A DNA stretch of 64,000 bases, from the NCBI GenBank assembly GCA_029247265.1, contig JAQWLN010000211.1, positions 1 to 64,000 on the forward strand, in the 5' to 3' direction. A model generated the notes under the pieces. The model made no database searches and had not been told where the DNA came from. It was given only the letters and a program-made list of their open reading frames with translations. Source of the stretch: Fuerstiella sp. GTDB lineage: Bacteria > Planctomycetota > Planctomycetia > Planctomycetales > Planctomycetaceae. Below, piece by piece: positions 1 to 33,309 of the stretch; positions within the stretch are counted from its first letter, which is position 1; each line of letters starts with the position of its first letter. The position numbers were made by a program, and so were the translations under genes.

Positions 1-814
1 GGGCAATTTCATTGACGAGCAGGCGACCGGAGTTGGTCAGAAACAGCTCGATGCACAGCACACCAACGACGTCGAAATGCTCCAGCACGGCTCGAGCCAT
101 CTCGACCGCCTCGCTGGCGACGGACTCAGTGACCTGAGGAGCGGCAGACACAGACACGTCCAGAATATGGTTGGCGTGATGGTTGAGTAATGGATCATAG
201 AAAACTGTTGTGCCGTCAGCGTAACGACCGCCGACGATCGACAATTCAAAGTCGAAGTCGATGCGTTCTTCGACAATCCCTTCGTTGAGGCCGGTTTCGC
301 CCCACAATGAACCAACATCATCGCCGGACGCAGTCGACCACTGCCCTTTTCCGTCGTAGCCATCGGTGTTGGCTTTCAGGATCACCGCCCCGCCAAAGTC
401 ATCGCGAGCAGTCGCCAACTCCTCCGCCGAGCTCACCATTCGAAATCGAGCGGTCCGCAATCCGATGCTGCTAAGAGCCGTTTTTTCCGCGAACCGGTTC
501 TGAGCCGTTTTCAACAACTCCAACCCGGGGCACAGAGCTGCCTGCTGCTCAATCGCCGCCGCCGCCGCTGATGGAATGTTTTCGAACTCATACGTGACAA
601 CATCGCACGCTTGAGCAAATTCATGCAACTTTTCTTCATCGTCAAATGCGCCGGTCCACGCCAGGTCGCTGACCTGACCGGCAGGGCTGTCTTTGTCTCC
701 TCCAAAGACAGCAATTCGAAAACCCATTTGCCGCGCAGAAACTGCCAGCATTCGCCCCAGTTGACCGGCTCCCAGAATTCCGATCGTACTTCCCGGGCCA
801 ACGACACCGGTCAT
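1..814 (-). CDS. purK: N5-carboxyaminoimidazole ribonucleotide synthase PurK (3' end beyond window)
   Basis: This is the ATP-grasp enzyme that carboxylates AIR with bicarbonate to N5-CAIR in purine synthesis. Translated from ATG at 814, 271 codons are visible and the gene runs off the left edge; the family is usually about 360-390 residues. The N-terminal nucleotide-type fold motif [13 protein letters not shown] starts near residue 12. The family-typical block VTYEFENIP, the ATP-grasp lysine/glycine loop [14 protein letters not shown] and the [11 protein letters not shown] strand follow in order. The start overlaps the purE stop (ATGA), so the two are translationally coupled and should form one transcript. 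There is no frameshift or odd residue in the visible part. The identification is firm; only the C-terminus is unseen. Confidence 0.93.
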
Positions 815-1335
815 AGCCACGAATCCTGCAGTACGGTTTCCGTCTGATCAGCGTTGAACTTCTCCATTTTCTGCTGCAACGCTTCATCACCGGTTGCCAG
901 GATTCGCACGGCCAGCAACGCTGCGTTCTTCGCGCCCGCAGCACCGATCGCCAGAGTTCCCACAGGTACTCCGGCAGGCATCTGTACAATGGAGAGCAAC
1001 GAGTCCACGCCGTTCAGCACACGACTCTTAACCGGGACGCCCAACACAGGCAACGTGGTCATTGATGCCACCATACCCGGCAGATGCGCCGCGCCCCCCG
1101 CGGCGGCAATAATGACTTTCAAACCACGTGAGGACGCCGCAGATGCATACTCCACCATCCACTTTGGTGTCCGGTGAGCGGAAACGACGCGACTTTCGCA
1201 CGACACGCCGAATTCGGTCAGTAACTCGACCGTCGGCTGCATGGTTTCCCAATCGGATCGACTGCCCATGATCACCCCGACCAGGGGCTCAGATTCAGCC
1301 TGATTTGCTGCGGTTTCGCCGCCCGAAGATGACAT
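811..1335 (-). CDS. purE: N5-carboxyaminoimidazole ribonucleotide mutase PurE (class I)
   Basis: PurE converts N5-CAIR to CAIR in de novo purine synthesis. The 174-residue product is the usual size. It has the substrate loop GSRSDWETM near residues 24-32 and the catalytic-histidine motif SAHRTP near residues 53-58. The glycine/alanine-rich [12 protein letters not shown] segment and the C-terminal [13 protein letters not shown] block complete a class I PurE. The first roughly 17 residues (Ser/Gly/Glu-rich) are an unconserved extension, so the true start could lie slightly downstream. purK follows with a 4-base overlap. The PurE-PurK pairing indicates the two-step bacterial route rather than the single-step animal-type (class II) PurE. 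Confidence 0.95.
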
Positions 1336-1430
1336 CGGTTAAACTTCCATTTGGTGAAGACGTCGGACAATCCCCATCGTAGAGTCAGACGGCAGAATCT
1401 CAAGTCCGGTGGCCTCAACTGTTTCGCTGT

Positions 1431-2609
1431 TTACCAGTCACCAACGCTGCCGTCGGAATAGAAGACTCGTTGCGGTACTTCCTGCTGGAATGGGTGCTTG
1501 AGGACCTCCGCTTCATTGATCTCGATGCCCAGCCCCGGACGCGTGTTCGGCGTCACGGTCCGAGTCGCAGGATCGACAGCAAATCCCTCATCTACGATAT
1601 CATCTCGCCACGGCACATCATTGTGCACCGATTCACAGATAATATAGCTTGGCTGTGAAAATCCGAATTCCAGAGATGCTGCAGTACTGACCGGCCCCTG
1701 AGGATTATGGGGGGCTAATGCGATGCGGTAGGCATCGGCTAGGGCCGCGATCCGGCGTGCCTCCGTGAATCCGCCGCAGTGAGTGATATCCAGCTGACAG
1801 ATCTCGCAACCGCGTACCGCAAACAGATCACGAAAGGCGGCCAGATGAGTCATGCGTTCGCCCGTCGCGATGGGCGTCGTCACCGCGGCATTAATGGCGG
1901 CCAGACCTTCGATACTTTCCGGCCAGCACGGTTCTTCGAAAAAATACAATCCATACGGATCCAGGGCTCGCGCGAATTTCAGCCCCATGGCCGGTGATGG
2001 CCGAGCGTGACAGTCAACCATGATATCGATGTCGTCACCCACGGCGTCGCGCATCGCCGCAACACAGTCTTCCGCGGCTTTCACCGGGCGCAATCCTTCA
2101 ATCGGCATCGTCGGCGGCACGGCCATCGACTTAAACGCCGTGAAACCATCGGCGACAGACTGTTGCGCTAACTCGCCAAACATGCGGGCATTGTCGACAG
2201 ATGTCTCGTAAAAGCTCTCCAGATTGCCACCACCCAGATGACAGTATAAACGAATCGAATCCCGCACGGGTCCGCCCCAGAGTTGATGACAGGGTACTCC
2301 GTGAAGCTTGCCAACAATATCCCACAGCGCGATATCAATTCCGGCGATCGCCGTCGACCGTACGATGCCGCTGCCATGCCAGAAGTGCTGTCGCCACATC
2401 ATCTGCCACAGGTGCTCTACGCGAGTCGGATCTTCGCCAATCAATAATTGCGACACGTCTTCGACCGCACCGACAATGCTGCGAGTATGCCACTCCAGTG
2501 TCGCTTCGCCCCAGCCGAACAGCCCCGGCTGATCGGTGACGACCTTCACAAACACCCAGTTTCGCATGCGGGCATGACATACCAGAATTTCAATTGCCGT
2601 AATCTTCAT
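1431..2609 (-). CDS. Enolase-superfamily sugar-acid dehydratase (galactonate/mannonate dehydratase-like)
   Basis: A 392-residue mandelate racemase/muconate lactonizing enzyme family protein. The C-terminal barrel carries D199-x-H201, E225, E251 and H301. This spacing (+2, +26, +52, +102) is the one I know from D-galactonate and D-mannonate dehydratases, where D/E/E bind Mg2+ and the two histidines act in proton transfer. The N-terminal capping domain has the usual [10 protein letters not shown] and [10 protein letters not shown] blocks. The enzyme would dehydrate an aldonic or uronic-derived acid to a 2-keto-3-deoxy acid in the cytoplasm; no signal peptide is visible. The substrate cannot be read from the sequence. 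It is divergent from the PSD1 gene across about 130 bases, so the two promoters must share that gap. Confidence 0.85.
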
Positions 2610-2739
2610 CGTGATTCCATCAATGAGGGCAAAAACAGCAACAACACGTGACCTGCCCGCCGTTTCTCTTTATGCTGAGAGGTATGCTACCGGTTACAAT
2701 TCGCCAACGCGACCTTCCCCTCCCACCTCGGACCTGGCA

Positions 2740-5700
2740 ATGAAACAGCGATCCGTTCGCATCGCCCTGTTGGGCGCTCTCCAGACCATCACGGCTCAAC
2801 CACTTTGCGCCGCTGATCAAGTTGACTACGTGAAGCAGATCAAACCTCTGCTGGCAACAAAGTGTTACGCGTGCCACGGAGTGCTGAAACAGGAAGGCGG
2901 ACTTCGACTGGAAACTCGGGCGCTGATGACTCAGGGTGGTGACAGCGGGGCGGCCGTTGTCTCTGGCGACACCGCTGCCAGCAAGATTCTGGAACGCATC
3001 ACCGCCGACGAAGATTCACGCATGCCGCCGTCAGAAGACGGTGCCGCCCTGAAACCAGCCGAAATTGCCCTGCTCCGCAGCTGGATCGCATCGGGCGCCG
3101 TTGCTCCGGACGAAGAAACTCCGCTGGCTCCAACAGAGCACTGGGCCTTCCGACGGATCGAACGTCCGGCATTCGAGCAATCGTCCGGGAACCCAATCGA
3201 CGTCCTGCTGGACGCGAAGCGCAGTAAACATGGCCTGAGTATTCAGCCGCCGGCCGAACGGTCCATCCTGATCCGACGGCTGTACCTGGATTTGATCGGT
3301 CTTCCGCCATCATTAGAACAACTTCATGACCAGCGTCCCTGGGACGCCATCGTTGACGAACTTCTGGCCAGTCCGCATCACGGCGAGCGGTGGGGAAGAC
3401 ACTGGATGGATGTCTGGCGCTATTCTGACTGGTATGGCCTGGGAGCCCAACTCCGCAACAGCCAGAAACACATCTGGCACTGGCGCGACTGGATCGTGAA
3501 CTCGCTGAACGCGGACAAGGGCTACGACCGCATGATCCATGAAATGCTGGCCGGCGATGAAATCGCTCCGGAAGACCCGAACGTCGTGGCAGGAACCGGC
3601 TTTCTGGCTCGTAACTACTACCTGTTTAACCGCACGACATGGTTGGACAGCACGATTGAACACACTGGCAAAGCATTCCTCGGCCTGACGCTCAATTGTG
3701 CCAAGTGCCATGATCACAAGTACGACCCAGTCACCCATGTCGACTACTACAGTTTCCGAGCGATCTTTGAACCGCATCAGGTTCGTCTTGATCCTGTGCC
3801 CGGCGCGACCGACTTCGAAAAAGACGGCTTGCCGCGAGTCTTTGACGATCACCCGGATGCCCAAACCTTTCTGCACCTTCGTGGAAATCCGAAGGATCCG
3901 GACAGCGAGACAAAAATCGTCCCGCGAGTTCCCGAAATACTTGCCAGCTTCCAGCCGAAAATTGAAGCCATCAATTTACCGGTAGCCGCCTGGGCCCCTA
4001 GTGTCCGCGACTATGTGCGGCGAGACTACCTGCAAAATGCTCAGAATTCGATCGTATCCGCCGAACAGACAGTGGCCGCAGCTCAGAAGAAACTGGCCGA
4101 ACTGCCTGCGAAATCACCACAGAAAAACAGCCGCAATCCAGTCGCGGACTTCGTATTCACCGACGACTTCGAACAGCCCAACCCGGACGCATGGGAAGTC
4201 GTCGGCGATGGGTGGAAGTACGAAGGCGGAGCACTGCACCAGACGGTCGCAACCCGCGATCGGGAATTCGTGCGATTCAGGAAACCCCTGCCAGACGACT
4301 TCGACATTACCTGTCGATACACAACCACGGGCGGAACCACCTATAAGTCGGTCACGTTTCGTTTCGACGAATCAGAAGACCGAAAGTATGACAACTTCGT
4401 GTACACAAGTGCTCACGCACCTGGTCCGAAAGTTCAGGTTGCCTACACGCGAGGCGGGGCAAACACCTATCCGCCGCAGGGCCAGGCCGCTCGCCCCATC
4501 AAAGTCGGTGAAACATACGAGCTGCGATTTGCGGTGCGAAATCGGCTGGTCAACGTCTGGCTCAATGGCGAATTCGCCGTGGCATATTCGTTTCCCGATC
4601 GGCGGCCCGACGGTCGCTTCACTTTGTCCGGCTTCGACGCAACCGTCGCTTACGATTCGATTACGATCAAATCGCTGCCCACCGATGCAGAAATGGTGGA
4701 CGCAAAGAACCCGGCTGCACCGTCACCACAGGATGCAGCGACAGCGGTAAAAACAGCAGAAGCAAATCTACACGCGGCTAAAGCGCGGCTGAAGTCGCTG
4801 CAGGCGATTATCAGGGCCGACAGCGCGAAGCACCAACCATCCGGGACAGACGCAGCAGAGCAACTGGCAAAGGTCGCAGCAGCACGAGAAGCGGAAGCAA
4901 TGCTGGCCACGGCAGCTTACGACCTGCTGCTCGCTGGTGCAGACCAGAAAAAGATGCAGGCGGCACAGAACAAAGCAACACTCGCGAAAGAAAAGCAGGC
5001 GGCGATCGAAAAAGGAACGGTTAGTTACGCCAGTCTTCGAGCCTCTCGCAAGGCCCTGGAAGGTCCGGCACACAAGGAGTCCGACTACGCCCCGACATAT
5101 TCGAAAATCAGCACGGGCCGACGTCTGTCGCTGGCGCGCTGGATGACGGATCGTGACAATCCGCTGACTGCGCGCGTTGCCGTCAATCACGTCTGGGCGA
5201 GACACTTCGGTCAACCGCTGGTGGAATCAGTATTCGACTTCGGCCTGCGGGCAGAGAAGCCGCTGCATGCAGATGTCCTGAATTTGCTGGCGGTTGAATT
5301 TATAGAGTCTGGCTGGAGCTTCCAACATCTGCATCGGCTGATCGTCACGTCCCAGGCATATCAGCTCAGTTCATCAACAGCCGATGCGACCCGTGACACT
5401 CTTGCCGGTGATTCGGCGAACAGTTTCTACTGGCGTATGAACGCTCGCCGTATGGAATCGCAAGTGGTACGTGACAGTCTGCTGCACCTGTCCGGCACGC
5501 TCGATGAAAAACTCGGTGGTCCTTCGCTGAACGTCGGAAACGCCAGCAAACGCCGCAGCATCTACTTTAAGCACTCACGGGATGATCAGGACAAGTTCCT
5601 GTCCATGTTCGACGACGCGGATCTTCTGCAATGTTATCGCCGCAGCGAAAGCATCGTACCTCAACAGGCGCTCGCATTGGCCAATAGTGAACTGTCCATG

Positions 5701-27730: not shown

Positions 27731-29296
27731 TCAGGGACTGTCCGCAGCCACTTCATCCGCCGGTTGTTCAGAAATTCCTTTACGCTCGGCATCCGCTTTA
27801 TTCAACGCCTGCAGATACGCACGAGCTGCCGCTTCAATGATGTCCGTGCTGACACTCTTGCCCATGTAGTGACGACCATGAACATTGATCGTCACCCGAA
27901 CTTCTCCCTGTGCGTCTTTGCCTTCCGAGACGCTGCGAACATTGAATTCCTCAAGTCGCGCCGTCAATTCGATGATACGTTCCATGGCGCGAAACACTGC
28001 GTCAATCGGCCCGTCACCGGTGGCCGCGTCACACAGGACCGGCTGCTCTTCACACTTCAATTCCAGTGTCGCCGTTGGAATTGCTGACGACCCAGCTGAT
28101 GTATGAAAGCTGACCAGTTTCCAGCGTTCCGGTGCATCCGCCAGACGGTTGTCGATTAACGCAATGATGTCGGAATCGTAGACTTCCTTCTTTTTGTCAG
28201 CCAGGACGATGAAGTCATCAAATGCCTTCTGAACGGCGGCGTCATCCAGATCGAAGCCCAGCTCTTTTGTGCGGTCACGAAACGCATGGCGACCACTGTG
28301 CTTCCCCAGGACCAGATTCCGCCCCGAATACCCCACGTCTTCCGGACGCATGATTTCGTAGGTGGACCGCTCCTGCAACATTCCGTGCTGGTGAATGCCC
28401 GCTTCGTGAGCAAAGGCATTCTGCCCGACGATGGCCTTGTTCCTCTGCACTTTCATGCCGGTGATCGATGAGACCAGCTGACTTGTCGGAAACAGTCGCT
28501 CGGTGTTGATCTTCGTATGGACACCGTAGTAATCCGCACGCGTGCGAATGGCCATGACCAACTCCTCCAGAGCGGCATTGCCGGCCCGTTCACCCAGTCC
28601 GTTGATCGTGCACTCGACCTGACGAGCCCCCGCTTCGATCGCCGACAGGCTGTTCGCCACTGCCATGCCAAGGTCGTTGTGACAATGACTGCTGATAATC
28701 GATCGATCAATATTCGAAACGTGCTGCTTCAGATAGGAGATTACCTTGAAGTAGTGACTTGGAGTGGCATAGCCGACGGTGTCCGGAATGTTGACTGTTG
28801 TCGCACCAGCATCAATGGTCTTTTCAACCACTTCGCACAGGAAGTCCAGTTCGGTACGAGCTGCGTCTTCAGGCGAAAATTCGATGTCGTCACAGAATTC
28901 TTTCGCATCCCGAACCGAATGCACAGCGCGATCAATAATCTGCTGCTTGTCCATCTTCAGTTTGTGCTCGCGATGGATGGCGCTGGTGGCCAGAAAAACG
29001 TGAATACGCGGCTTTTCGGCACTCGCCAGCGCTTCTTTTGCCTTTTGAATATCGTCGTCCCGACTGCGAGCCAGCGCGCAGATCGTGGACCGGTCACTGA
29101 ACTGACTGGCAATCATCTGCACGGCTTCGAAGTCACCAGGAGAGGCGATCGGGAACCCAGCCTCGATCACGTCGACACCAAGTTCCACCAGCGCGTTGGC
29201 GACCTTCAGCTTTTCGTTGGTATTCATACTGCAGCCCGGAGACTGCTCGCCGTCGCGCAGTGTCGTGTCGAAAATGATGATCTGGTCGCCGGTCAT
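27731..29296 (-). CDS. leuA: 2-isopropylmalate synthase LeuA
   Basis: Catalyses acetyl-CoA + 2-ketoisovalerate to 2-isopropylmalate, the first committed step of leucine synthesis. The 521-residue product has the DRE-TIM barrel motifs DTTLRDGEQSPG (residues 9-20), HCHNDLGMAV (metal-binding histidines) and NGLGERAGNAALEE. A complete C-terminal LeuA regulatory domain runs from about residue 385 (ATLELKCEEQPVLCDAATGDGP ... TDIIEAAARAYLQALNKA), so leucine feedback inhibition is likely. The start at 29296 has AGGAG 9 bases upstream. A leader peptide and attenuator lie directly upstream at 29352-29471, so transcription is probably also leucine-controlled. No other leu gene is nearby. Confidence 0.96.
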   Translation of the reverse strand: MTGDQIIIFDTTLRDGEQSPGCSMNTNEKLKVANALVELGVDVIEAGFPIASPGDFEAVQMIASQFSDRSTICALARSRDDDIQKAKEALASAEKPRIHVFLATSAIHREHKLKMDKQQIIDRAVHSVRDAKEFCDDIEFSPEDAARTELDFLCEVVEKTIDAGATTVNIPDTVGYATPSHYFKVISYLKQHVSNIDRSIISSHCHNDLGMAVANSLSAIEAGARQVECTINGLGERAGNAALEELVMAIRTRADYYGVHTKINTERLFPTSQLVSSITGMKVQRNKAIVGQNAFAHEAGIHQHGMLQERSTYEIMRPEDVGYSGRNLVLGKHSGRHAFRDRTKELGFDLDDAAVQKAFDDFIVLADKKKEVYDSDIIALIDNRLADAPERWKLVSFHTSAGSSAIPTATLELKCEEQPVLCDAATGDGPIDAVFRAMERIIELTARLEEFNVRSVSEGKDAQGEVRVTINVHGRHYMGKSVSTDIIEAAARAYLQALNKADAERKGISEQPADEVAADSP

Positions 29297-29351
29297 GGGT
29301 CACTCCTGATTGATTCGAGGCTGCACCTGCGAGTTTACCCGACATGGGAAC

Positions 29352-29381
29352 AAAAAAACCCTGAGGCACTGCCTCAGGGTT
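29352..29381 (-). terminator. leuA attenuator terminator hairpin
   Basis: On the minus strand AACCCTGAGGC/GCCTCAGGGTT form a perfect 11-bp stem (29381-29371 with 29367-29357) with a 3-base loop. Seven T follow, beginning within the stem end (29358-29352). It lies 55 bases before the leuA ATG and 42 bases after the leader-peptide stop, where an attenuator terminator is expected. The plus-strand T tract is 9 bases from the stem and less suitable, so this works mainly towards leuA. Confidence 0.85.
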
Positions 29382-29410
29382 TGAAACTTCTTTTTTGATA
29401 AGCATGCGTA

Positions 29411-29420
29411 CCTGAGGCGG
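29411..29420 (-). promoter_or_regulatory. Antiterminator segment of the leuA attenuator
   Basis: CCGCCTCAGG on the minus strand begins 3 bases after the leader-peptide stop codon and repeats the GCCTCAGG of the terminator's 3' arm. It is complementary to CCTGAGGC in the terminator's 5' arm, over 8 consecutive pairs. It can therefore form the 2:3 antiterminator in competition with the 3:4 terminator. The leader coding segment also contains CTGAG, which could pair with its CTCAG as a 1:2 structure. Confidence 0.75.
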
Positions 29421-29423
29421 ACT

Positions 29424-29471
29424 TCACGTTGGAAGTAATAGAAGGCTCAGATTTAGTAGCAGGCTCCTCAT
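29424..29471 (-). CDS. Leucine leader peptide of leuA
   Basis: A 15-codon ORF, MRSLLLNLSLLLLPT, with 8 leucines, ending 127 bases before leuA on the same strand. The leucine codons are CTG, CTA, CTA, CTG, CTT, CTA, TTA and CTT. In the long genes of this window CTG dominates, so the CTA/TTA content is notable and would make translation sensitive to charged tRNA-Leu. The peptide is followed by an antiterminator segment and an intrinsic terminator, the order found in the enterobacterial leu operon leader. The Shine-Dalgarno is weak (GAGG about 14 bases upstream), so initiation may be nearly leaderless if the promoter below is right. The frame is also open upstream, but only this segment has the leucine run. 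Confidence 0.85.
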   Translation of the reverse strand: MRSLLLNLSLLLLPT

Positions 29472-29480
29472 GTGGTTCAG

Positions 29481-29507
29481 ATTATCCTCGGAAAACACGA
29501 TGGTCAA
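29481..29507 (-). promoter_or_regulatory. Candidate promoter of the leuA leader transcript
   Basis: TTGACC (29507-29502) and GATAAT (29486-29481) match sigma-70 -35 and -10 boxes at 5/6 each, with a 15-base spacer that is shorter than ideal. Transcription would begin within a few bases of the leader ATG at 29471. Planctomycete promoters are poorly defined, so this is tentative. Confidence 0.4.
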
Positions 29508-29822
29508 CCCAGAATCGAAGGTGGATGCCCGGTCTCCGTCAATTCCCCTGACACCGTAGCAGTTACTCCGGTTCGGCAGCGCCTCGGGGATTCCGCATAT
29601 TCTATCTCTGAACCCGATAAATCCACGGGCCTGCGGCCGTTCGTCGGTCAGTGAGCAAGCCTGCTCACGGCACAAATCACATGCCACGCCGGAGCACCTC
29701 ACAAGAAAAACGTAATTCGCGCGAACTCTATAGAACCTGCTGCGTCTTCCTCTCTGCACACGCAGCATCGTGCCTCTGCCGACTGCGAACACCAAACCAC
29801 CAGTAGCAACGGAAACAATACA

Positions 29823-29921
29823 ATGATCCTCCTGTCGTCCGGCTTATCAGGCAAACAGAACAGCGTCGGTCAGGTTGTCAATCAACCGGCCACCGACCTG
29901 CTGTATCTCCTGCGCCAATGA
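29823..29921 (+). CDS. Possible 32-codon leader ORF upstream of the tRNA array
   Basis: ATG 29823 to TGA 29921 encodes a 32-residue peptide beginning MILLSSGLSG and ending ATDLLYLLRQ, with seven leucines. The stop codon lies inside TGACACC (29919-29925), which repeats the 3' arm of the terminator 30 bases downstream. The sequence has no known domain. The rest of the gap between the leuA leader and the tRNA array (29508-29822) shows nothing I can support. Confidence 0.3.
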   Translation: MILLSSGLSGKQNSVGQVVNQPATDLLYLLRQ

Positions 29922-29951
29922 CACCTGAGGGACCATCGCGATCGAAAACGC

Positions 29952-29986
29952 AAAGCCCGGTGTCACATATGACACCGGGCTTTTTT
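29952..29986 (+). terminator. Strong intrinsic terminator upstream of the tRNA array
   Basis: GCCCGGTGTCA/TGACACCGGGC form a perfect 11-bp stem (29955-29965 with 29970-29980) with loop CATA, extended by flanking A/T pairs and followed by six T (29981-29986). It is oriented for plus-strand transcripts. No annotated plus-strand gene precedes it, so it ends either a small RNA or the short leader ORF transcript. Confidence 0.8.
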
Positions 29987-30063
29987 CGTATAACAAACAC
30001 ACACATGGAATCTGACATGACCATTCTGCACCGATTGAAACGCACACCCACAACCGACAACTC

Positions 30064-30135
30064 GGGGTTGTGGTGTAACGGCAGCACAGCAGACTTTTAA
30101 TCTGCACGGTGAGGGTTCGAATCCCTCCGATCCCA
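30064..30135 (+). tRNA. tRNA-Lys(TTT)
   Basis: Acceptor GGGGTTG pairs with CGATCCC (two G-T pairs). Anticodon loop CTTTTAA sits on GCAGA/TCTGC; T-loop is TTCGAAT. Discriminator A; CCA not encoded. First member of the array. Confidence 0.88.
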
Positions 30136-30162
30136 TACCGCCCTGTGGCGAATGAACAACCG

Positions 30163-30234
30163 GCACTGGTCGTCCAGCGGCTAAGACTCCGCCTTCGTAA
30201 CGCGGCAACGTGGGTTCGATTCCCACCCGGTGCT
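30163..30234 (+). tRNA. tRNA-Thr(CGT)
   Basis: Acceptor GCACTGG pairs with CCGGTGC. Anticodon loop TTCGTAA on CCGCC/CGCGG has a C-C mismatch at the pair next to the loop. T-arm GTGGG-TTCGATT-CCCAC is perfect. Discriminator T; CCA not encoded. Confidence 0.82.
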
Positions 30235-30297
30235 CTCAGTGAGTCGCAGGCACAACCTGCAAACGCTCTTTGACAACCACTTTCGTTCAATTGCAAC

Positions 30298-30368
30298 GCG
30301 CCCATGATGTAGCGGTAGCCTACTGCCTTGCCATGGCGGAAGCGCGGGTTCAACTCCCGCTGGGCGCA
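30298..30368 (+). tRNA. tRNA-Gly(GCC)
   Basis: Acceptor GCGCCCA pairs perfectly with TGGGCGC. Anticodon loop TTGCCAT on CTGCC/GGCGG. T-arm GCGGG-TTCAACT-CCCGC. The D-arm (GTAG/CTAC) is cramped against the anticodon stem, so the D region is irregular. CCA not encoded. Confidence 0.8.
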
Positions 30369-30516
30369 AACCGGGCGTTTGATCGGGTGCCGTGGCACTC
30401 TGCCAGAACGCCGAACACGTGTACACCGCAGGATGTTTGGTTAGCCGCGTGTCAGCCGGGGAGTTAACCGAAACATGCTTTTTATTTGCGCTGACGATAC
30501 CGTCAGAACTCAATTT

Positions 30517-30591
30517 TGCGGTGGGGCCTGTGCTGGTACGGGCAGGCGGTTGTTAACCGTTCAGACGCAGTTTCGATTCCTGCCACCGCAG
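30517..30591 (+). tRNA. tRNA-Asn(GTT)
   Basis: Acceptor TGCGGTG pairs with CACCGCA. Anticodon loop TTGTTAA on GGCGG/CCGTT (two G-T pairs). T-loop TTTCGATT region with GCAG/CTGC. Discriminator G; CCA not encoded. Confidence 0.82.
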
Positions 30592-30723
30592 CTTGTGGCA
30601 CCGGCCACGGCGGATGCGAGCTAACGCCCCGCGAGAATGTTGTTCGTCGCTGAGAACAGACGGCAGAAATTGACGAGCACAAAATTAATTTCTCGCCCGA
30701 CAATTGTTATACGACGTTGAATG

Positions 30724-30814
30724 GGAAGGACAAGCCAATGGGCGATGGCAGCTGTTTCGAAAACAGTCGAGTGTGCGTGAGCATTCCCTGGGGGTTCGAA
30801 TCCCTCTCCTTCCG
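30724..30814 (+). tRNA. tRNA-Ser(CGA)
   Basis: Acceptor GGAAGGA pairs perfectly with TCCTTCC. Anticodon loop TTCGAAA on GCTGT/ACAGT. A long class II variable arm (about 20 bases) is present, as expected for Ser. T-loop TTCGAAT; discriminator G; CCA not encoded. Confidence 0.88.
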
Positions 30815-30834
30815 CTTTCAACAATTCAGAATTT

Positions 30835-30906
30835 GTGCCTCTGACCGAGCGGCAAAGGTGCCGGGCTTCCACCCCGGTCAGGCGGGTTCGACTCCCGCGA
30901 GGCACT
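30835..30906 (+). tRNA. tRNA-Gly(TCC)
   Basis: Acceptor GTGCCTC pairs perfectly with GAGGCAC. Anticodon loop CTTCCAC on CCGGG/CCCGG. T-arm GCGGG-TTCGACT-CCCGC. The next tRNA begins at the very next base, so 3' processing of this one and 5' processing of the next share a junction. Confidence 0.87.
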
Positions 30907-30981
30907 TGCGGGGTAGTTTCCGCTGGTAGAAATACGTGGCCTTGAACCACGTGTCCGCAGGTTCGATTCCTGCCCCCGCAG
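30907..30981 (+). tRNA. tRNA-Gln(TTG), with C at position 33
   Basis: Acceptor TGCGGGG pairs perfectly with CCCCGCA; T-arm GCAGG-TTCGATT-CCTGC. The anticodon stem CGTGG/CCACG encloses CCTTGAA, giving anticodon TTG but a C where U33 is nearly universal. Discriminator G; CCA not encoded. Confidence 0.8.
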
Positions 30982-30997
30982 TTTATTGTGATCATGC

Positions 30998-31070
30998 GGC
31001 ACCGTAGCCCAACGGAAGAGGCAGTCGTTTCAAAAGCGACACAGTGTGAGTTCGAATCTCGCCGGTGCCA
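30998..31070 (+). tRNA. tRNA with Leu anticodon CAA but short (class I) variable loop
   Basis: Acceptor GGCACCG pairs perfectly with CGGTGCC; D-arm GCC/GGC; anticodon loop TTCAAAA on GTCGT/GCGAC; variable loop only ACAGT; T-arm GTGAG-TTCGAAT-CTCGC; discriminator A. Bacterial tRNA-Leu normally has a long variable arm, so the charged amino acid is uncertain although anticodon and A73 fit leucine. Confidence 0.82.
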
Positions 31071-31179
31071 TCAGGCAGCGCCTGCATTCATGGCGTGGAT
31101 GGTTTGTTACGCATTGATCGTTGCACCGCCGAGATGGTTTATGTGATGCCATCCTTCTGGCACATACAAAACATGATAC

Positions 31180-31254
31180 GCCCTCGCAGAGCAGTCCGGA
31201 GTGCTCGCCATCCTGTCACGGTGGAGATCGTCGGTTCAAATCCGACCGGGGGTG
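31180..31254 (+). tRNA. tRNA-Asp(GTC)
   Basis: Acceptor GCCCTCG pairs with CGGGGGT (G-T at the end and one inside). D-arm GAGC/GCTC; anticodon loop CTGTCAC on CCATC/GGTGG; T-arm GTCGG-TTCAAAT-CCGAC. Discriminator G, as usual for Asp; CCA not encoded. Confidence 0.85.
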
Positions 31255-31335
31255 CTTGAATAACGGCTGATTCGACAGCTCAGACTTCGAACAAAGGAAA
31301 GACCGTTTCGGCGATATCCTGCGTCGTTGGAATTT

Positions 31336-31410
31336 GGCGTGGTAGCCCAACGGCAGAGGCATCCGGCTTAAGCCCGGAACAGTGTGGGTTCGAATCCCAC
31401 TCACGCTATC
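31336..31410 (+). tRNA. tRNA with Leu anticodon TAA but short (class I) variable loop
   Basis: Acceptor GGCGTGG pairs with TCACGCT (G-T at both ends); D-arm GCC/GGC; anticodon loop CTTAAGC on TCCGG/CCGGA; variable loop ACAGT; T-arm GTGGG-TTCGAAT-CCCAC; discriminator A. Closely related in body to the CAA and TAG members. Confidence 0.82.
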
Positions 31411-31423
31411 GATCATTGAACAT

Positions 31424-31498
31424 GGCACCGTAGCCCAATTTGGCAGAGGCGCTCGGCTTAGAACCGAGATGTTGGGAGTTCGAATCTCCCCGGTGCTA
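31424..31498 (+). tRNA. tRNA with Leu anticodon TAG but short (class I) variable loop
   Basis: Acceptor GGCACCG pairs with CGGTGCT; D-arm GCC/GGC; anticodon loop CTTAGAA on CTCGG/CCGAG; variable loop ATGTT; T-arm GGGAG-TTCGAAT-CTCCC; discriminator A. It would read CUA, a codon used three times in the leuA leader peptide. Confidence 0.82.
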
Positions 31499-31503
31499 CT
31501 TTC

Positions 31504-31588
31504 GGGCTTTGTTCCTCATGGCGGTCTGTAAAACCGCTGTCAATAAACGCTGAGGTGGTGAGGAGAGGTTCGATTCCTTCAAAGCCCA
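31504..31588 (+). tRNA. tRNA-Tyr(GTA)-like gene without a D-arm
   Basis: Acceptor GGGCTTT pairs perfectly with AAAGCCC. Anticodon stem GCGGT/ACCGC encloses CTGTAAA (GTA). A long variable region follows, as in tRNA-Tyr. Only about 10 bases separate acceptor and anticodon stems, too few for a D-arm. The T-stem (AGAGG/CCTTC) is imperfect. TTCCTCA in the short 5' spacer is complementary to TGAGGAG in the variable region. It may be a degenerate copy or a structurally novel RNA. Confidence 0.5.
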
Positions 31589-32169
31589 TTGCACAACGAC
31601 CGTCAGGATCGCAATCAGAGCCCCCTCGAAAGCCCCGGCACTGAGATTGCCCGTGGCTTCGCTTCGCCGTGAAAGAAGGCTGTTCCCCCGTGGAGTTATT
31701 GCATTCCGGCCGGTTGACGGAAGCGGACTTAGCACACAGCGCTGCTATTTGCGCAGGAACTGCCGGTATCGTCGCGGAGGAATACAGGTAACAGTGGATT
31801 GCCTCACTGTCGGCATCGACTTCGTATTGACCGACTTTTCAACCATAAAATAGAACCCAATCACGAATGTCGCGACCTGGCTGATTCGTCGAAAAACGAT
31901 TCCGTGAATCGACGAAACTGCCGGCAGCAAATTCATCCTCTCACTCCTCTCACTCCTCTCACTCCTCTCCTCTCCTCTCCTCTCCAATCTAAACCCAGCC
32001 TGCTGGATTTACGGACGTCGGAGCATTTTCGCACGGCAGACGCCACAAAATCTCCGTTCTCTTATATTCATTTGGTCTTACCACCGCGTGTTCTGCCGTT
32101 TAAGCTGAATGCTGACATTCAGCCGGCGCCGGGGATATATCAGCAAATTTGCCTGGGTGAAAACTCCAG
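31589..32169. other. 581-base region between tRNA array and polysaccharide export locus
   Basis: No credible gene on either strand. It contains a C/T-rich tandem repeat (31938-31985) and presumably the promoter of the export locus. Short ORFs here are low-complexity (for example Glu/Arg/Ser repeats read from the tandem repeat) and are not supported. No tRNA T-arm consensus was found beyond 31588. Confidence 0.5.
31938..31985. repeat. C/T-rich tandem repeat upstream of the polysaccharide locus
   Basis: CTCACTCCT occurs three times in tandem and grades into about five copies of the pentamer CTCCT. It ends 184 bases before the first gene of the export locus. Polypurine/polypyrimidine tracts of this kind are prone to length change by slippage. 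Confidence 0.9.
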
Positions 32170-33309
32170 ATGAAAACATCTAGTTCCGGATGCCCGATAT
32201 CGCTGTGGACACACGGCAGAAGGCTGCAATCGCCGTCGTTCTGCGTGAACATCGTGGCATGTACGATGGCAGTTCTGCTTGCCGGCTGCCAGAGCGGCAA
32301 TCACTATTACGCTCAATCCATGCCCGGAAGCCTGCGGCTGACAGCTCAATCCAATCCTCAGGAAGCAGATTTATCGCGATTGGCCAGCGCATCCGGCGGC
32401 AGCCAGACAATCGGTCGCGGCGACGTGCTGGAAGTTTCGATCGCAGCAAGCCTGAGCAAAGACGATCAATTTACGATGAAAATTCGGGTCGCGGAAGACG
32501 GCAGAGCACTGTTGCCCGATATCGGATTTGTAACGCTGGCTGGTGTTGAACCCCAGGCGGCTGAAGCCCTGATTGGCCAGGAGGCCGTGAACAAGGGGTA
32601 TTATCGCAACCCTACGGTGACCGTGTCGTACCTCAGCAGAAAAATGAATCGCGTTCGGGTGATTGGCGCTGTGAATGAACCCAGCACTTATGAGCTTCCA
32701 CCTGGTGAAAGCGATGTGGTGTCGGCCATTGCGGCAGCCGGCGGACTGGCGGAAAACGCTGGCGAAAAAGTGGAAGTACGTAACCCAAACCATGTTTCAT
32801 CGGCAAAACGCCCCATCGTCGCCGGAGACTCGAAGCCTTCGGTTTCGACGGTAAGTGCAACATCGCCGAGCGACGGCATGAGGTCATACACCATCAATCT
32901 GGTGTCTGCGGCCAGGGCCGGAACAAATATGTACGCCGTAGAAGATGGTGGTGTTGTCATGGTCGAAAAACGCGACCCAGCCCCCGTCAAAGTCGGTGGA
33001 CTTGTGAATAAACCGGATGAGTACGACTATCCCGTGGGCAAAGATTTAACAGTCCTGGGTGCGATTTCTCTGGCGGGCGGTACCAACAACCAGCTGGCCG
33101 ACAAGGTCTTCGTAATTCGCCCCCTCGTAAACTCGAAGGACCCGGCGGTGATTCAGGTCAGTCTTCGGAAAGCAAAGAAGATGGGGAAAGAAAACATACT
33201 TCTCGGTCCGGGCGACATTGTCTGGGTTGAGCAGACAACCGGAACCGTCTTCATGGAAGCACTACAGCTGATTCGATTCGGAGTCTCCGGATCAGCACCG
33301 TTGTTCTGA
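32170..33309 (+). CDS. Wza-like polysaccharide export lipoprotein
   Basis: A 379-residue outer-membrane polysaccharide export protein. The N-terminus ends in lipobox LLAGC (Cys40) after a hydrophobic stretch. A Poly_export domain follows (IGRGDVLEVSIAASLSKDDQFTMKIRVAEDGRALLPDIGFVTLAG, about residues 76-125), then an SLBB repeat (RVIGAVNEPSTYELPPGESDVVSAIAAAGG, about 160-190) and a second near residues 274-310 (VKVGGLVNKPDEYDYPVGKDLTVLGAISLAGG). It should form the export channel for a capsule or exopolysaccharide. It is followed after 78 bases by the tyrosine autokinase and then the polymerase-like gene, making a compact export locus. Confidence 0.9.
   Translation: MKTSSSGCPISLWTHGRRLQSPSFCVNIVACTMAVLLAGCQSGNHYYAQSMPGSLRLTAQSNPQEADLSRLASASGGSQTIGRGDVLEVSIAASLSKDDQFTMKIRVAEDGRALLPDIGFVTLAGVEPQAAEALIGQEAVNKGYYRNPTVTVSYLSRKMNRVRVIGAVNEPSTYELPPGESDVVSAIAAAGGLAENAGEKVEVRNPNHVSSAKRPIVAGDSKPSVSTVSATSPSDGMRSYTINLVSAARAGTNMYAVEDGGVVMVEKRDPAPVKVGGLVNKPDEYDYPVGKDLTVLGAISLAGGTNNQLADKVFVIRPLVNSKDPAVIQVSLRKAKKMGKENILLGPGDIVWVEQTTGTVFMEALQLIRFGVSGSAPLF

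Follow-up and report, generated by a model that had tools for sequence, protein, structure and literature searches.

Three class I tRNAs with leucine anticodons that probably accept leucine and belong to a possibly mobile tRNA array

The window (the whole stretch of 64,000 nucleotides of DNA that was analysed) carries a tRNA array in which three genes combine leucine anticodons with the short variable loop of class I tRNAs. Judging from sequence comparisons, and with a probability of about 0.8, we consider them to be leucine-accepting tRNAs that belong to an auxiliary array, itself probably spreading by horizontal transfer, that are charged by the resident LeuRS and that probably form a back-up set.

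The three genes, their array and the host genome

ARAGORN identified 11 tRNA genes at 30064-31499, all on the plus strand. Among them, tRNA-Leu(CAA) (30998-31070) reads UUG, tRNA-Leu(TAA) (31336-31408 according to Infernal, 31335-31410 according to ARAGORN) reads UUA and, by wobble, UUG, and tRNA-Leu(TAG) (31424-31498, or 31424-31499 according to ARAGORN) reads CUA and other CUN codons. Each has a variable loop of 5 nt and A as the discriminator. Infernal scored them at 54.2, 55.8 and 60.0 bits, respectively, about twice the RF00005 gathering score of 29; their common body shows 84% mean column identity, and the D arm TAGCCCAA..GG.AGAGGC is present in all three. The first-pass annotation, which had reported leucine anticodons in class I bodies, a body common to the three genes and a retained discriminator A, and had called for covariance-model scoring, is borne out on all these points. 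A canonical class II tRNA has a variable arm of at least 10 nt; here, only 5 nt lie between the anticodon stem and the T stem in each of the three. An alternative fold with a long arm, which the same annotation had named as an objection, was looked for by energy folding and rejected, as no such arm appeared in the folds of the three tRNAs (z -3.4, -1.2 and -2.3); the D and anticodon arms of the minimum-energy folds correspond only roughly to the cloverleaf in two of the three cases. We also analysed covariation in an alignment of 42 class I tRNA-Leu sequences (41 of them distinct), comprising 39 of the 40 from the window and the loci of relatives described below, and three from one phage; the sequence left out, from L076, has lost U48. 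Of the 820 pair cells, 98.2% hold standard pairs, and changes on both sides are seen in 17 of 20 pairs. None of 500 shuffles matched this, and no slid version of the alignment came near the observed covariation. It is almost certain that the three genes encode real, selected and functional tRNAs.

The other members of the array are tRNA-Lys(TTT) (30064-30135), tRNA-Thr(CGT) (30163-30235), tRNA-Gly(GCC) (30298-30368), tRNA-Gly(TCC) (30835-30906), tRNA-Gln(TTG) (30906-30982) and tRNA-Asp(GTC) (31180-31255), all identified by both ARAGORN and RF00005, together with tRNA-Asn(GTT) (30517-30592), which at 26.6 bits falls just under the RF00005 cut-off, and tRNA-Ser(CGA) (30724-30815), which has kept a long variable arm (variable region of 22 nt). 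Directly after tRNA-Leu(TAG), at the end of the array, lies a degenerate tRNA-like element (31503-31588, plus strand) with a clear T arm and acceptor stem, identical at 77 of 87 positions in the relative G002 and at 79 of 87 in G001. It gives a weak match to the tRNA-Sec model (28.4 bits), but this identity was rejected, since the score is below the cut-off and a proper tRNA-Sec gene exists in the same genome, on contig C44. By eye, the D region of the element may pair with its variable region, and its anticodon triplet is not the same in G002. Upstream of the array, a terminator-like hairpin (29952-29983, plus strand) was detected as a consensus match only, and a search of 29300-32200 for promoters of the sigma-70 type gave none, against 1.4 expected.

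The host assembly (6.53 Mb in 280 contigs, rated 90.5% complete, with the window on contig C245) is planctomycete-like according to the PSCyt1, PSCyt2 and PSD1 domains found in two proteins of the window, PSCyt1 being described in Pfam as a planctomycete cytochrome C. It contains separate class II tRNA-Leu genes with the anticodons TAA, CAA, GAG, TAG and CAG (L031-L035; RF00005 matches read with ARAGORN), and the three class I genes are therefore supernumerary. A second small group of divergent tRNAs in this genome (L036 6483-6787, contig C130) comprises Cys(gca) and Phe(gaa) genes along with one further RF00005 match. Mycobacterial tRNA arrays on chromosomes, phages and plasmids have been described, in passages of two reports, as redundant and as a putative antidefense system (PMC5966550, PMC12803027), with an array unit defined as 20 or more tRNA genes (PMC5966550). 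As in those units, the window genes are clustered and redundant with a dispersed host set, but there are only 11 of them, or 12 counting the degenerate element; as this is below the 20-gene size, we describe the group as a short cluster of the array type, which resembles array units.

Leucine identity elements and charging

Passages of the literature on the identity of tRNA-Leu (PMC9976931) list A73, A15-U48, G18G19, A20a and the D-loop/T-loop core for E. coli LeuRS, for which the long arm is dispensable and not a determinant, and describe human mitochondrial tRNA-Leu(UUR) as leucylated through A73 and A14 without a long arm. A73, A14, A15-U48, G18G19 and A20a are all present in each of the three window tRNAs. 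In the loci of relatives, which were found through the array and not through the D-arm pattern, this set, defined in E. coli and human mitochondria rather than in planctomycetes, is complete in 30 of the 40 class I tRNAs with leucine anticodons (the three from the window included) and in none of the 175 whose anticodons are not those of leucine (Fisher 2e-28, for sequences that are related and hence not independent). One feature is missing in the remaining ten, and A73 is found in 40 of 40. The identity-element analysis that had been proposed in the first-pass annotation thus found the full leucine set in every window gene and, on the synthetase side, one LeuRS gene over its family cut-off, on contig C119; two further LeuRS matches, on another contig, are both below it. 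A dedicated second LeuRS was rejected, as this is the only gene to pass the threshold in an assembly with a completeness of 90.5%.

The fate of the variable arm in other tRNAs of the arrays agrees with this assignment. In loci of at least 5 tRNAs the long arm is kept by 18 of 18 tRNA-Ser and 8 of 8 tRNA-Tyr, and tRNA-Leu is short in 36 of 41. With the genes selected by the D-arm pattern excluded, the loci of matches listed from genome_contigs contain long tRNA-Ser in 21 of 21 cases, long tRNA-Tyr in 6 of 6 and short tRNA-Leu in 21 of 25, and the corresponding numbers for viral loci of matches listed are 48 of 49, 22 of 24 and 33 of 62. Among the matches listed, with pattern-selected genes included, A73 is present in 35 of 35 short tRNA-Leu from genome_contigs and 97 of 97 from viral contigs. 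Such a distribution would be in keeping with an arm that is required by SerRS and TyrRS but dispensable for LeuRS. On the strength of these comparisons, the three class I tRNAs very likely accept leucine. It had been proposed that charging with leucine would be an unusual case of recognition; the cited work on E. coli LeuRS and on the armless mitochondrial tRNA-Leu(UUR) speaks against this.

The other possibility raised in the first-pass annotation was recoding, in which tRNAs reading UUG, UUA and CUA would carry some amino acid different from leucine. In its favour, the class I body does differ from that of the host's own tRNA-Leu, and the genes are supernumerary. Against it stand the complete set of leucine identity elements and the invariant A73, the lack of a second LeuRS over the cut-off, and the host class II tRNAs that read the same codons, which would result in ambiguity throughout the proteome; recoding to serine in particular would need G73 and a long arm, according to passages of two reports (PMC9976931, PMC7609411). 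In four actinobacterial genomes, moreover, the class I form is the only reader of UUA and UUG found (see below). Recoding was rejected on the identity elements, and we regard it as very unlikely.

Class I tRNA-Leu in related genomes, actinobacteria, phages and plasmids

A blastn search with the array against 39 genomes (its own included) yielded matches in 23, and a locus of at least 5 tRNAs was found in 15 of the 39, i.e. in 8 of 8 genomes of the same genus and in 7 others (34 stretches fetched); loci in G022, G034, G036 and G037 reach 19-32 tRNA genes. Class I tRNAs with leucine anticodons are present in 17 of 19 loci of at least 5 tRNAs (the window counted). The neighbours of the loci differ among relatives, the presence of the loci is patchy, and related tRNAs occur in phages and plasmids, a pattern that may reflect horizontal transfer. 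Comparison with G002 showed 92.6% identity at tRNA positions (771/833) and 74.1% in the aligned spacers (602/812); for the first part of the array and G001 the values are 95.1% (448/471) and 74.1% (274/370). The stronger conservation of tRNA positions therefore indicates purifying selection on the tRNAs. tRNA-Leu(CAA) is identical at 68 of 73 positions in G002 and 69 of 73 in G001, and tRNA-Leu(TAG) at 74 of 76 in G002. The G002 counterpart of tRNA-Leu(TAA) has diverged (62 of 76 identical) and is not called by ARAGORN, hence single array members can be lost. This divergence, like that of Gly(GCC) (62 of 71 identical in G002), the redundancy with the host class II set, the degenerate element at the array end and the absence of a sigma-70-type promoter-like site in 29300-32200, would be expected if the array, once acquired, had fallen silent or begun to decay, leaving genes that are structurally sound but unexpressed or unneeded. 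The excess of tRNA over spacer conservation, the compensatory changes and the kept identity elements point instead to lasting selection, at least in this lineage, and make such a relic state improbable. Among array tRNAs we also observed the opposite oddity to that of the leucine genes: in Trp(cca) (L071 2772-2854) and Asn(gtt) (L073 3298-3378) the variable region is long, at 13 and 12 nt, respectively.

We scanned the D-arm pattern in genome_contigs and viral_contigs, and the counts for these two refer to the matches listed. A called tRNA contains 113 of 124 matches in genome_contigs (112 Leu and one called Phe) and 116 of 131 in viral_contigs (112 Leu and 4 ambiguous); in the 112 of 113 and 112 of 116 cases with a clear leucine anticodon, the variable loop is always short. 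For 92 of the 113 genome_contigs matches the tRNA is the only one called in its stretch, mostly in Actinomycetota by record title. In a set of 397 genomes, 40 matched the pattern: 16 are confirmed tRNA-Leu (8 of the same genus as the window, and G038, G122, G124, G136, G253, G258, G353 and G385), in 19 ARAGORN calls no tRNA at the match, and G013, G045, G140, G307 and G389 were left out. Matches outside called tRNAs mean that the pattern over-counts class I tRNA-Leu. Among phages, 133 of 50,697 records match the window tRNA-Leu(TAG); in 25 rows taken across the ranking, tRNA-Leu is annotated under the match in 15, and nothing or a hypothetical protein in 10.

The class II tRNA-Leu genes found have the anticodons CAG, GAG and UAG in Mycolicibacter MYC123, Mycolicibacterium sediminis and Corynebacterium yonathiae, and GAG and UAG in the actinobacterium IMCC26103; the UAA and CAA tRNA-Leu are class I in all four genomes. 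As scoring covered 150 of 339-4171 candidates per genome, we also checked exhaustively with a class II UAA/CAA pattern (a pattern that could miss a divergent class II gene), which had no site in the four genomes and two each in the controls G000 (the host) and G005. The class I tRNAs, as the only UUA/UUG readers found in these actinobacteria, must carry leucine under the standard code. Judging from these genes, tRNA-Leu of the class I form occurs widely among bacteria and phages. The search for similar genes advised in the first-pass annotation thus succeeded in relatives, phages, plasmids and actinobacterial chromosomes, and the annotation's premise of class II tRNA-Leu in bacteria does not hold in general. 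We found no paper describing bacterial class I tRNA-Leu in the open-access literature searched, although one may still exist. The occurrence of this form in arrays, phages and actinobacteria contradicts the statement of a recent review that only animal mitochondria lack the arm, and provides a natural test of LeuRS requirements; such genes should not be read as pseudogenes or recoding tRNAs.

The known systems share some of these features. In passages of reports on mycobacterial array units (PMC5966550, PMC12803027), supernumerary tRNAs are likewise clustered, with diverged bodies and redundant anticodons, and are spread on phages and plasmids; those passages contain no description of class I tRNA-Leu, and the window cluster has fewer than 20 genes (11-12), a size that its relatives do approach or exceed (19-32). 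Class I tRNA-Leu is also present in a plasmid array of Mycolicibacterium alvei (L091) and in cyanobacterial arrays of Kovacikia (L090) and Cylindrospermum (L169). The Anabaena trn operon, according to a passage of PMC10272220, encodes 26 tRNAs on the delta plasmid, is silent under repression by TrcR and becomes active under translational stress; like the window array, it is a supernumerary cluster beside a dispersed housekeeping set, but differs in that its expression and repressor are established (PMC10272220). Phage-encoded tRNA-Leu, such as those of Erwinia phage phiEa21-4, Vibrio phage KVP40 and Mycobacterium phage Chaser, agree with the window genes in their D arm and identity elements. 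The three tRNA-Leu genes of phiEa21-4 share the 5-nt variable loops and A73, and differ from the window genes in encoding CCA. The housekeeping tRNA-Leu(UAA) and (CAA) of actinobacteria share the class I form, the D arm and A73 with the window genes, but are dispersed single genes and sole readers of their codons rather than supernumerary. Human mitochondrial tRNA-Leu(UUR) resembles the window genes in lacking the long arm and in its A73 and A14 (PMC9976931, in part). It differs in being organellar, in having its own LeuRS and in a partly unfolded anticodon branch.

Possible role, the leuA neighbour and permuted tRNA-like elements

We infer that the window tRNAs are expressed, leucylated and of physiological use. 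The single resident LeuRS would charge them with leucine via A73 and the D-loop/T-loop core (A14, A15-U48, G18G19 and A20a), with no need for a long variable arm, and the charged tRNAs would read UUG, UUA and CUA as leucine. The array could then serve as a second tRNA set when housekeeping tRNAs are limiting or damaged, the trigger being translation stress or attack by tRNA-targeting nucleases. By analogy with the known arrays, we give this back-up role an even chance. It is rather doubtful, but worth considering, that the class I form represents a second, mobile architecture of leucine tRNA across phyla. If so, it would travel in phages, plasmids and tRNA arrays, and in Actinomycetota it would have taken over the reading of UUA and UUG from class II tRNAs. 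In arrays, where Ser and Tyr kept the arm, its loss from tRNA-Leu would protect the reserve tRNAs against nucleases or toxins recognising the housekeeping tRNA-Leu, with the resident LeuRS still charging them.

The codons concerned had been described as the minor leucine codons. In 26 long open reading frames of the window this is true of UUA (3.5% of leucine codons) and CUA (2.7%), but UUG, at 12.3%, equals CUU in frequency and exceeds CUC. Outside the array lies leuA, encoding 2-isopropylmalate synthase (27731-29296, minus strand; HMGL-like and LeuA_dimer domains). Upstream of it is an attenuator (29356-29471, minus strand) consisting of a leader peptide, MRSLLLNLSLLLLPT (29424-29471, minus strand), followed by a terminator-like hairpin. 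The leader has 8 leucines among 15 residues, with three CUA and one UUA among the eight leucine codons, in agreement with the earlier report of CUA and UUA in the leader. A similar leader is seen by eye in G002, with UUG replacing UUA. The spare tRNAs might be imagined as a leucine sensor that sets the reading speed of the leader CUA and UUA codons, given that these make up four of its eight leucine codons vs 6.3% in the long reading frames, and that leuA adjoins tRNAs in the host, G001 and G002. Rare codons are, however, usual in leucine attenuators and part of their ordinary design, the leader codons are already read by the host class II UAA and UAG tRNAs, and leuA adjoins tRNAs in only 2 of the 21 stretches of relatives, those of G001 and G002. 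As this adjacency is seldom conserved, we claim no functional link between leuA and the array; the sensor explanation was rejected and appears very unlikely.

The D-arm pattern also revealed a different kind of element. A circularly permuted tRNA-like motif, in which a T arm, the acceptor 3' strand and A73 lie upstream of the matching acceptor 5' strand and a leucine-type D arm, is present in 32 of the 42 pattern matches that lie in no called tRNA (L378-L390, L392, L396-L398 and L400, and further L095, L131, L140, L192, L201, L205, L206, L215, L229, L251, L256, L267 and L297). The spacing between the two parts is 3-17 nt, with four cases of 89-100 nt. A looser scan gave 65 matches vs none in one shuffle, a few of them being two ordinary neighbouring tRNAs. 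The element in L379 gives a weak match to the Rfam YrlA (Y RNA-like) family (24 bits vs a cut-off of 69), by which the permuted elements are probably divergent bacterial Y RNAs. Many of the loci contain two modules about 140-160 nt apart, perhaps two tRNA mimics.
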